A stretch of 64,000 bases of DNA from Lachnospiraceae bacterium (lineage in GTDB: Bacteria > Bacillota > Clostridia > Lachnospirales > Lachnospiraceae). The stretch covers positions 1 through 64,000 of the forward strand of contig SVFK01000006.1 in assembly GCA_015056915.1 (NCBI GenBank). Direction: 5' to 3'. Below are positions 51,284 through 55,116 of this stretch, in pieces. Each line of letters starts with the position of its first letter. The first letter of the stretch is position 1. The notes below the pieces were generated by a model. That model had not been told where the DNA came from and did not search any database. It was given only the letters and a program-made list of their open reading frames with translations. Made by a program: the position numbers and the translations under genes.

Positions 51284-52276
51284 TTAATCGGCTGATAAGT
51301 TGGCAGCACGTTTTTTGTGCATGCGAATATCAGGACCTGTCAGCTTACAGATTGTATAATTGCTGGTGATTCTGGAAAATATTCTGTCCGAATATCGGTC
51401 ACGCAACTCTTCCAAACTGAGATTAGTAGAGATAATGGTAGCCTTCTTGCGCAAGTGTCTCTCGTTCAGACATGCAAACAACTGAGAAGTTACAAAGGTA
51501 TTTGTCACTTCAGTACCAAGGTCATCAATAATCACCAAATCACAATTGTATAAGTCTTTGTAAAAATTGTAAAGAGTTTCTTTTGCTTTTGCATCAAAAG
51601 AATAGCGTGCCAGAGTATCAAATAGTCCTGAAGAACTGAAATAGATAACAGAATGTCTATTTAAAAGAAGCTCATTGGCGATACATCCTGATAAAAAGCT
51701 CTTACCAGTTCCTACTGTACCATAAAAGAAGAGATTGTGGTAGTCTTGTTTGAAGTTTTGTACAAAATTCTGGCAGATTTCTACGCACTTCTCAAAGCGT
51801 ACCAAATCATCCCCCTGATAGTATTCATAGGAGAGAGTAGAAAAATTCTCTTCAGCAATGATTTCCTGAATATTTGATTGTTCGTAAAGGAAAAAAATCT
51901 CCTGCTGTTGGAAGCAATGACACTTTTCCTTTAAACCGTCGGCTGTTTCCGTATAACCGGTGTCCTTGCAGGTGGAACAGGTATAAATCGGCTCAAGATA
52001 ATTCTCCGGCAAGCCTGCGTCGTTTAAAAGCAGCTTCTTCCTTTGGGCAATATGAACCAAGGAAGCATGCAAATCGGAGAGTGCAGCCTCGTCACCATCA
52101 AGCATCCGTTTTGCCTTTGCTACGGAAATACTTGCTACAGAGGCATCAAGCTCTTCAAATTCAGGGATTGCTTTGTATACCTGCCGACGACGTTCTTCGA
52201 CGAGATGACGATTGTAGTCCTGAGTCTGTTCGTATCTTTTTATAATGGTTTTATACTGAGTGTTGTTCAGTGCCAC
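51284..52276 (-). CDS. DnaC/DnaI-like ATP-binding helicase loader
   Basis: FFYGTVGTGKSFLSGCIANELL Walker A, LVIIDDLGTE Walker B; CSTCKDTGY...CHC zinc motif. Confidence 0.92.
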   Translation of the reverse strand: MALNNTQYKTIIKRYEQTQDYNRHLVEERRRQVYKAIPEFEELDASVASISVAKAKRMLDGDEAALSDLHASLVHIAQRKKLLLNDAGLPENYLEPIYTCSTCKDTGYTETADGLKEKCHCFQQQEIFFLYEQSNIQEIIAEENFSTLSYEYYQGDDLVRFEKCVEICQNFVQNFKQDYHNLFFYGTVGTGKSFLSGCIANELLLNRHSVIYFSSSGLFDTLARYSFDAKAKETLYNFYKDLYNCDLVIIDDLGTEVTNTFVTSQLFACLNERHLRKKATIISTNLSLEELRDRYSDRIFSRITSNYTICKLTGPDIRMHKKRAANLSAD

Positions 52277-52316: not shown

Positions 52317-53417
52317 CTAATTGCTGAGAAGCTCACGCTCTAATTCATCAAAGTCATAACAATTCTGAGTGAATTGGTTAAATTTGTTGCTTACGGTAGG
52401 CTTGGCTGCACTACGCCTCTTTTGATAGAGCGAATCGATTTTATGGATGTCGGCTTTGTGATGTACATTTTCACGCTTCCAGCTGCCGAGAATGCTCTCT
52501 GCATATTCAAAACGATGTCTGTCTGTAGCCAGAACTGTGCGCTCGCAGGCCTCCAAAATAATATCTGTACTAAAGCCGTATTCTTTGATCCAGCGGTTGA
52601 TGAATTCCATCTCCTTTGCGGTAGGAGAACCGTTTTTGCCCAGCTCATTCATAATGGCATAGACGTTCTTATCGTACTTGGTAGCGTATTTCTGTGCCTG
52701 CTTGGGAGTGGTAATTCCCTGCTCTGCCCAGCTGATTGCAACCTTTTCTATGTATTTGAAATCCTTTTTGCCGCGGTCTACGCAATATTGAATTAAATAG
52801 TCAATCAAATCCTCGGAAAAATGCAGTGTATCCGTAAAGAACAGGATGGTCTTCATCTCGGAAGCGGATAAGGGCTTACCAATATAAGATTCTGCAATAA
52901 AAAGAAGCTGTGCGGTGGTCTCGCGTTCTTTAAACTCACGCAGCTGATCCAAGGAATACGACGGCTTGTTAAAAGCAGGCTTGTCTGCTTCCGGCGAAGC
53001 AGAGGCAGAATATTCCGCACTCTGTGGGGTATGCAAAGTGGGTGTCAGTGAGCTGATGGCAGCGGGTGCTGATGTCAACGCAACATTATTCCGGGCAATA
53101 GGCGTGGTTACCTCTGCAGAAGCTGTTAAGTCACGCAGATGGATGCCTACCAGATTTTTGTCATCATCATAGTCCAGATCTAAAAGCTGGTGCTTCTCCC
53201 AATATTTTAAAGCGCGAATAACATCCTTCTCGGTATGATTAAACTTGTCCGCAATTCCGGACACACTAATAGCCTGATTGGCATTTAGCATGCGAATCAG
53301 GTAAAAATAGACCTTCAACTGCGCGTCGTTTGCATCCTTCATATACTGATCGATAAAAATGTTGGACACAACAGTAGAGTCTGCATAGTTGTCCTTATAA
53401 ATTGTTAAGCGTGCCAT
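52317..53417 (-). CDS. DnaD domain primosome protein
   Basis: N-terminal winged helix; DnaD-like repeats KEMEFINRWIKEYGFSTDIILEACERTV and YAESILGSWKRENVHHKADI. Confidence 0.88.
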   Translation of the reverse strand: MARLTIYKDNYADSTVVSNIFIDQYMKDANDAQLKVYFYLIRMLNANQAISVSGIADKFNHTEKDVIRALKYWEKHQLLDLDYDDDKNLVGIHLRDLTASAEVTTPIARNNVALTSAPAAISSLTPTLHTPQSAEYSASASPEADKPAFNKPSYSLDQLREFKERETTAQLLFIAESYIGKPLSASEMKTILFFTDTLHFSEDLIDYLIQYCVDRGKKDFKYIEKVAISWAEQGITTPKQAQKYATKYDKNVYAIMNELGKNGSPTAKEMEFINRWIKEYGFSTDIILEACERTVLATDRHRFEYAESILGSWKRENVHHKADIHKIDSLYQKRRSAAKPTVSNKFNQFTQNCYDFDELERELLSN

Positions 53418-53547
53418 AGTAACACAATCCTTTCACATCACACATCAACCTTGCCTTTACAAGCATTTCAAAGTATAGCATAAGGTTTCCAAAAAAGAAA
53501 TAGTAAATTTGCCGGAAAGCCTTGAAAACACTGGGTTTCCGGCAAAC

Positions 53548-53718
53548 TGTGGAAGCTGTGGAAATTGTGGATAACAATATTAGGATTTGTTAAGAATATG
53601 CGTAAAATAAGGAAGCGTGTTACAAATTCTGGAAGAGAAAATATCCACAATAAAACAAAAAATATCCACAGCCAAAGAATGAAAAAGGAACATTCTTTTC
53701 TGTGGATAATGTGGACAA
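53548..53718. promoter_or_regulatory. Cluster of DnaA-box-like 9-mers
   Basis: TGTGGAAGC, TGTGGAAAT, TGTGGATAA contiguous at 53548-53574; ATATCCACA at 53641-53649 and 53662-53670; TGTGGATAA, TGTGGACAA contiguous at 53701-53718. Confidence 0.7.
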
Positions 53719-55116
53719 CTAAATTCCAAGAAGGTTTTCCCCGATTTTAAGCACATCCCCTGCCCCCATAGTTATCAACAGGTCGCCGTTTGTGCAATTT
53801 TTTAATAAAAAATTTTCTATTTCATCGAAGGAAGGAAAATAGAAGGCTTCGTGCCCCAATGCCTGAATTTCTTCTTGTAAGGTTTCGGAGCTGACCCCCA
53901 GCGTATCGGTTTCCCTTGCGGCATAAATATCAGCCAACACAATCTTGTCAGCCAGAGAAAGTGCCCGGGCAAAGTCCTTCATAAAGGCCTTTGTTCTGGT
54001 GTAGGTGTGGGGCTGAAATACACACCAGAGGGTATTGTGGGGGTAATCGCGGGCTGCTGTTAAGGTTGCAGTAATTTCGGTGGGGTGATGGGCATAATCA
54101 TCTATTATGGTAACGCCGCCGATGCAACCTTTGTATTCAAAACGTCTGTCAGTACCGGTAAAAGCATGGAGTCCTTTGATGGTGTCTGCTCTGTCTATGT
54201 GCAGCAAATCGGCAAGTGCTATGGCTGACAGCGCATTGCTGATATTATGCTGACCGGGTACCTGCAGGTCAAATTTCTGAGTCGGCCCCTGAGGACTGTG
54301 TACCAGAAAGGTGGGATGACCGTATTCGTTACAGCTGATGCCGGAGGTGTGGTAATCTGCCGGAGTGCCGTCGCTGTTTTTGCAGTTACTGCAATAGGTA
54401 ATAACCTGACAGGAAAGCCCTTCTGTAATCTTACGGAAATCAGGAATTTCACCGTTGATAATCAGACACCCGTCGGCGGGAAGTAATTTGGCAAATTCGC
54501 GGAAGGAATGACGGATGTCATCGATGTCCTTGAAGAAATCCAAATGATCTTCTTCTATATTTAATATAATACTGATTTTGGGAGAAAAGCTCAAGAAGCT
54601 GTTGGTGTATTCGCAGGCTTCTGTTACGAACAGGTCGGTCTGTCCTACGCGGATATTACCGCCGATGCTTTTCAAAATACCGCCGATGGATAAGGTGGGG
54701 TCGGTATCTGCCTGCAACAGAATCTCACTGACCATTGAGGTGGTTGTTGTCTTGCCGTGAGTACCGCTGATGGCAATGGGGGTCTGATAATTCTGCATAA
54801 GCTCACCCAACAGCTCGGCTCTGGTCAAAAAAGGAATTTGTTTATTTATAGTTGCAATATACTCAGGATTATCGTGAGAAATTGCGCTGGTAAATACCAC
54901 ACAGTCTATGTCATCGGTAATATTTTCTGCCCGCTGTCCGTAAAATACAGAAATGCCCTTTTGCTCCAGACTTTCTGTCAGTGCACTTTTGGTTCGGTCA
55001 GAACCGGATACACGAAAGCCTGCGTTGTGAAGAATCTCTGCAAGACCGCTCATGCTGATACCGCCGATGCCGACAAAATAAATAGATGTGGGATGATTAA
55101 AATCAATTTGATACAT
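53719..55116 (-). CDS. murC: UDP-N-acetylmuramate--L-alanine ligase
   Basis: YFVGIGGISMSGLAEIL, ISGTHGKTTTTSMVSEIL, IIDDYAHHPTEI. Confidence 0.97.
   Translation of the reverse strand: MYQIDFNHPTSIYFVGIGGISMSGLAEILHNAGFRVSGSDRTKSALTESLEQKGISVFYGQRAENITDDIDCVVFTSAISHDNPEYIATINKQIPFLTRAELLGELMQNYQTPIAISGTHGKTTTTSMVSEILLQADTDPTLSIGGILKSIGGNIRVGQTDLFVTEACEYTNSFLSFSPKISIILNIEEDHLDFFKDIDDIRHSFREFAKLLPADGCLIINGEIPDFRKITEGLSCQVITYCSNCKNSDGTPADYHTSGISCNEYGHPTFLVHSPQGPTQKFDLQVPGQHNISNALSAIALADLLHIDRADTIKGLHAFTGTDRRFEYKGCIGGVTIIDDYAHHPTEITATLTAARDYPHNTLWCVFQPHTYTRTKAFMKDFARALSLADKIVLADIYAARETDTLGVSSETLQEEIQALGHEAFYFPSFDEIENFLLKNCTNGDLLITMGAGDVLKIGENLLGI

Follow-up and report, generated by a model that had tools for sequence, protein, structure and literature searches.

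Seven DnaA-box-like 9-mers are crowded into 171 bp (positions 53548-53718) of the gap between murC and dnaD in the window (the whole stretch of Lachnospiraceae DNA that was analysed, 64,000 nucleotides), which raises the question of what such an array does beside the genes for helicase loading. The initial annotation had proposed either control of the primosome operon or a titration site for DnaA, and both proposals are weighed below together with further readings.

The box array and the dnaD promoter

All seven 9-mers were found where the initial annotation had placed them, and coordinates and strands agreed with the arrangement it had described, i.e. three contiguous boxes, two contiguous boxes and two inverted boxes between them; the flanking genes were likewise as claimed, with the end of murC at 53719 and the start of dnaD at 53417. 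Box 1 (TTGTCCACA, 53710-53718, minus strand) starts one base past the murC stop codon, where the array begins, and opens a contiguous tandem pair that is closed by box 2 (TTATCCACA, 53701-53709, minus strand), an exact match. The two inverted boxes on the plus strand, both ATATCCACA, are box 3 (53662-53670) and box 4 (53641-53649), the latter 21 bp or two turns past the former. The promoter-proximal tandem run lies on the minus strand and consists of box 5 (TTATCCACA, 53566-53574, exact), box 6 (ATTTCCACA, 53557-53565, two mismatches), contiguous with box 5, and box 7 (GCTTCCACA, 53548-53556, three mismatches with the TCCACA core retained), contiguous with box 6. The boxes match the DnaA consensus TTATNCACA (PMC4447404), two of them exactly, three with one mismatch, one with two and one with three; the window genome has weak versions of boxes 6 and 7.

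With a loose box definition, i.e. one admitting all seven 9-mers, 73 box-like sites were counted in the 64-kb window. The TTATNCACA-like 9-mers were clustered above chance: the densest 171 bp were exactly 53548-53718 with seven boxes, compared to at most two in the windows listed elsewhere, and the densest 171 bp of 60 order-3 Markov control sequences of 64 kb contained one to three. Genome-wide ranking of boxes in the window's genome was based on pattern searches, in which the contiguous tandem pair TNTCCACANTNTCCACA occurred three times, twice within the array and a third time at G000:C1:156133-156149 (L116). The complete genome of Lachnospiraceae bacterium GAM79 contained this pair once, at the same murC-dnaD locus.

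All genes at the locus are encoded on the minus strand. The upstream neighbour murC (UDP-N-acetylmuramate ligase family) spans 53719-55116, dnaD (PF07261, 366 aa) spans 52317-53417, and a dnaC/dnaI-type helicase loader gene follows directly downstream at 51284-52276; the 'dnaC' of this locus thus denotes a DnaC/DnaI-type AAA+ loader and not the DnaC helicase of B. subtilis. The end of the array is 130 bp away from the dnaD start codon. Between the two lies a conserved extended -10 promoter of the dnaD operon (TATGCTATACT, pattern TRTGNTATAMT, 53472-53482, minus strand), and in the window box 5 starts 92 bp from it; the -10 element is free of box overlap, and the arrays are all upstream of it. 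A conserved element of the -35 region (CTATTTCTTTTTT, CTATTTCTTTTT; 53491-53503, minus strand) keeps a constant spacing to the extended -10. The strongly conserved CTATTTCTTTTT element replaces a normal -35 hexamer and fits neither that of sigma-A nor a DnaA-trio kept across the family. A consensus scan for promoters and terminators picked up neither the dnaD promoter nor the murC terminator described below, as it demands a -35 hexamer and accepts no loop longer than 8 bases.

Conservation across Lachnospiraceae and helical phasing

For a close set, a DnaD search yielded 80 Lachnospiraceae-type loci, with 78 readable gaps including that of the window. murC was located upstream of dnaD at every locus whose contig extends far enough, the 5' tandem pair was present in 73/78 loci, the first inverted box at 38-52 bp in 77/78, and a contiguous 3' run, made up of two or three boxes, in 67/78. 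For a family-wide search, a model built from sequence alone on the first 80 bp was applied to 299 genomes across Lachnospiraceae, nearly all from different genera, and matched in 209; the best 30 of these matches were murC-dnaD loci without exception (30/30). The resulting family set, additional to the close set, comprised 111 analysed loci, 107 of them murC-dnaD and about one per genus. In these 107 loci the gaps contained on average 6.6 boxes versus 0.24 in Markov-1 shuffles, and 88 had exactly two same-strand tandem runs, with an opposite-strand tandem run in 0/107; the distance from the start of the pair to the inverted box was 46-49 bp in 100 family loci. The shared layout consists of a tandem pair at the murC stop codon, inverted boxes about 48 bp on, a tandem run and the extended -10. 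Conservation of the 9-mers in syntenic relatives, on which the initial annotation had staked its reading beforehand, was thus strong, both in the 78 close-set gaps and in the 107 family loci.

Twenty Lachnospiraceae without a match to the model all retained murC-dnaD, 18 of them with at least one box, and several had a compact promoter-proximal array alone, without the box terminator. In 26 Clostridia outside Lachnospiraceae, dnaD was found without murC upstream and without a box cluster, with dnaC downstream in most. Given its presence with murC-dnaD and its absence from these 26 other Clostridia, the array goes together with the gene neighbourhood, and among the genomes examined it is a Lachnospiraceae-restricted element. 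This restriction, the spacing phase and the terminator stem formed by boxes 2 and 3 go beyond the initial annotation.

A scan of 291 Clostridia with model R1 also gave matches outside the family, which were, as far as examined, other DnaA-box clusters and not murC-dnaD loci. In several Clostridia, these were dense box arrays with tandem pairs by the sporulation regulator genes spo0A (L191, L205) and sigH (L189, L192) and upstream of hpf, the gene for the ribosome hibernation factor (L196, L200, L203, L185); further matches were near dnaA among others, with gene names assigned by NCBIfam. The genes spo0A, sigH and hpf are possibly further stationary-phase genes controlled by DnaA.

Many values were seen for the spacing between the 5' pair and the 3' run; nearly all fell within 77-189 bp, were unevenly spread and in the family set peaked at multiples of 11.1-11.2 bp. 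Periodicity in the family set gave a resultant of 0.59, compared to a null maximum averaging 0.17, with 0/5000 jittered sets as strong, and p = 0.0014 with each distance counted once; this and the other phasing p-values are somewhat optimistic, as the 11-bp period was chosen after seeing the data. For the close set, the period was 11.2 bp (0/5000 jittered sets; p = 0.07 with each distance counted once). Ancestry was controlled for with 70 pairs on edge-disjoint paths of the DnaD tree, and the differences in the 29 sister pairs differing by more than 4 bp were near multiples of 11 (p about 2.5e-4), so that the independent-pair test agrees with the 11-bp period.

The boxes also stand in a fixed relation to the promoter, as expected of a DnaA-regulated promoter. 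The distance from the run to the -10 was 90-93 bp in 68/73 close loci, and over the genera mostly 71, 80-82, 91-92 or 102-103 bp; scored with a 27-mer, this spacing changes in steps of about 10-11 bp and not in a 9-bp register, with some register noise remaining. In vivo, loops of lac repressor in E. coli show 11.08-11.60 bp per turn, owing to negative supercoiling in the living cell (PMC1762422), and the steps of about 11 bp are consistent with a complex in the cell that is looped or face-matched. Together with the stepped run-to-promoter distances, the pair-to-run steps point to an assembly that depends on the face of the DNA. The site seems to preserve helical phasing as a natural record, in which spacing has drifted by whole turns over about 180 loci.

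Titration sites of the datA/DBC type, exemplified by B. subtilis clusters and E. coli datA, lower free DnaA, and their deletion leads to early initiation. If the array were such a site, its boxes would soak up DnaA and delay initiation, and the nearby dnaD promoter would be incidental. Dense high-quality boxes away from oriC are in line with this, as is the position of some B. subtilis clusters between gene ends, e.g. gcp/ydiF (PMC4447404). However, titration requires no fixed phase relative to the -10 element and no constant strand, and it would not bind the array to dnaD in every genus; moreover, where boxes vanish, it is often the promoter-proximal ones that remain. We therefore regard titration as unlikely to be the function: it would arise as a side effect, without explaining the promoter phasing. 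Of the two proposals of the initial annotation, control of the operon was borne out by the promoter-locked, helically phased layout, and pure titration was not.

As DnaA is assigned as the binding protein from the motif, a different DNA-binding protein with a TTATCCACA-like site might instead use the array. This we consider improbable, given that the motif is the DnaA box, that the region upstream of dnaA in GAM79 is built from this motif too, and that the target genes are replication-initiation genes.

Position relative to the origin and the murC terminator

An origin or auxiliary origin, at which DNA would be unwound and the helicase loaded, was considered for two reasons: the tandem boxes lie upstream of an AT-rich stretch with the DnaA-trio-like CTATTTCTTTTT, and recruitment of DnaD to regions bound by DnaA is reported for B. 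subtilis (Smits 2011, as cited in PMC7561715). A search for dnaA in the window's own incomplete assembly gave no match, and the position of the origin was examined in GAM79. There, dnaA is located at coordinate 122, its upstream region has its own cluster of the same TTATCCACA boxes, and the sampled GC skew flips at dnaA and near 2.0 Mb. The murC-dnaD site at 3.289 Mb of 4.08 Mb is about 0.79 Mb from the origin and inside one replichore, away from any skew switch near dnaA; the skew analysis that the initial annotation had called for thus sets the site apart from the origin. Further, CTATTTCTTTTT is readable as four DnaA-trio repeats in 33/71 close loci, but this frame is intact in only 5/79 family loci and is located some 44 bp away from the run, not next to the boxes. 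The GAM79 skew and the loss of the trio frame in the family rule out a reading as oriC, and make an origin of any kind at this site very improbable. In GAM79, TCCACA...TCCACA pairs were strand-biased by replichore, nearly all being on the minus strand on one arm and on the plus strand on the other.

The intrinsic terminator of murC (53654-53708, minus strand) consists of a hairpin and a T tract, with box 2 as the 5' arm and box 3, directly followed by the T tract, as the 3' arm of its outer stem. The minus-strand RNA of the hairpin (53663-53708) has a folding energy of -20.6 kcal/mol and a z-score of -5.6, with z-scores of -4.5 to -10.4 across six loci, and a T-rich tail was present in 93/106 family loci; the element thus has the form of an intrinsic terminator, a stable hairpin just past the gene and then a T tract. 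In the alignment, 91.1% of cells pair, and four inner pairs covary with compensation (78 cells changed on both sides versus 27.3 shuffled), while sliding the partner by one column abolishes the pairing. This covariation of base pairs in the inner stem shows selection on an RNA hairpin. In 50/51 sequences, the box core of the stem has stayed the same; as the outer stem would be free to drift under an RNA role alone, its invariance shows a second constraint, which matches the DnaA box. In some genera (L282, L288), murC has another terminator hairpin, immediately next to the boxes, such that the box-built stem is not the sole solution.

That the 'boxes' are nothing but the stem of the murC terminator, as their hairpin with T tract, its 91.1% pairing and the covarying inner pairs might suggest, is extremely improbable and was rejected, given that boxes 1, 4, 5, 6 and 7 lie outside the hairpin, that several genera retain boxes without it, and that the inner stem varies freely with compensation against an invariant outer stem. 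A box-built terminator acting as a switch, in which DnaA on boxes 1-4 would alter the balance between a stop after murC and read-through into dnaD-dnaC, is doubtful; it would couple replication state, helicase-loader supply and a peptidoglycan-synthesis gene at one element.

Probable DnaA control of dnaD-dnaC in relation to known systems

On the basis of its sequence and conserved architecture, the murC-dnaD gap is probably a DnaA-responsive control region of the dnaD-dnaC helicase-loading operon. DnaA would bind the tandem pair and the inverted boxes upstream as well as the tandem run by the promoter. With the two arrays on the same face of the helix, bound DnaA could join across the gap, either in a loop or in a continuous complex, and this complex would meet RNA polymerase at the extended -10 promoter at a fixed angle. 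Boxes 2 and 3, doubling as the outer stem of the murC terminator, would shield dnaD from murC read-through.

The sign of regulation does not follow from conservation alone. In B. subtilis, DnaA activates sda and represses several operons (PMC4447404), providing precedent for both signs. As no box lies on the -10 element, face-dependent activation or loop-mediated modulation appears likelier than simple occlusion, and we slightly favour activation. DnaD is a direct binding partner of DnaA in B. subtilis (PMC7561715) and might therefore act back on the promoter of its own gene. As dnaD is not among the published strong DnaA sites of B. subtilis (PMC4447404), its control by DnaA has no direct precedent. 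Control of DnaD and the loader by DnaA, if real, would join initiator activity and the capacity for helicase loading in one feedback circuit, operating in a dominant family of gut bacteria.

Literature searches, with most subscription journals outside their reach, found no report on the murC-dnaD site, none that links DnaA boxes to dnaD in Clostridia, and nothing relevant on such boxes in Lachnospiraceae; as far as the searched literature shows, DnaA boxes doubling as a terminator stem are undescribed. The closest parallel to the array is the sda/yqeG cluster of B. subtilis, in which several boxes lie upstream of a promoter and DnaA acts as a transcription activator (PMC4447404); unlike there, the target here is the helicase-loading operon, the tandem runs are fixed and phased, and two boxes are part of a terminator. 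With gcp/ydiF and other clusters of B. subtilis the array shares dense boxes outside oriC, but it is promoter-locked and conserved at one locus over about 107 genera. The same box consensus and a clustering of boxes are found in oriC1/oriC2 of Clostridia (C. difficile, PMC7561715), whereas the array is without dnaA/dnaN, off the skew switch and without a conserved trio. A tie between DnaA and transcription termination has been proposed for the DnaA-dependent riboswitch of the E. coli his operon, which is described as acting in attenuation control (PMC10989985); here, in contrast, the boxes themselves form the terminator stem, at the end of the upstream gene. Gene-regulating DnaA-box clusters are thus already known, and new are the target operon, the fixed and phased layout throughout the family, and the second role of two boxes in a terminator stem.
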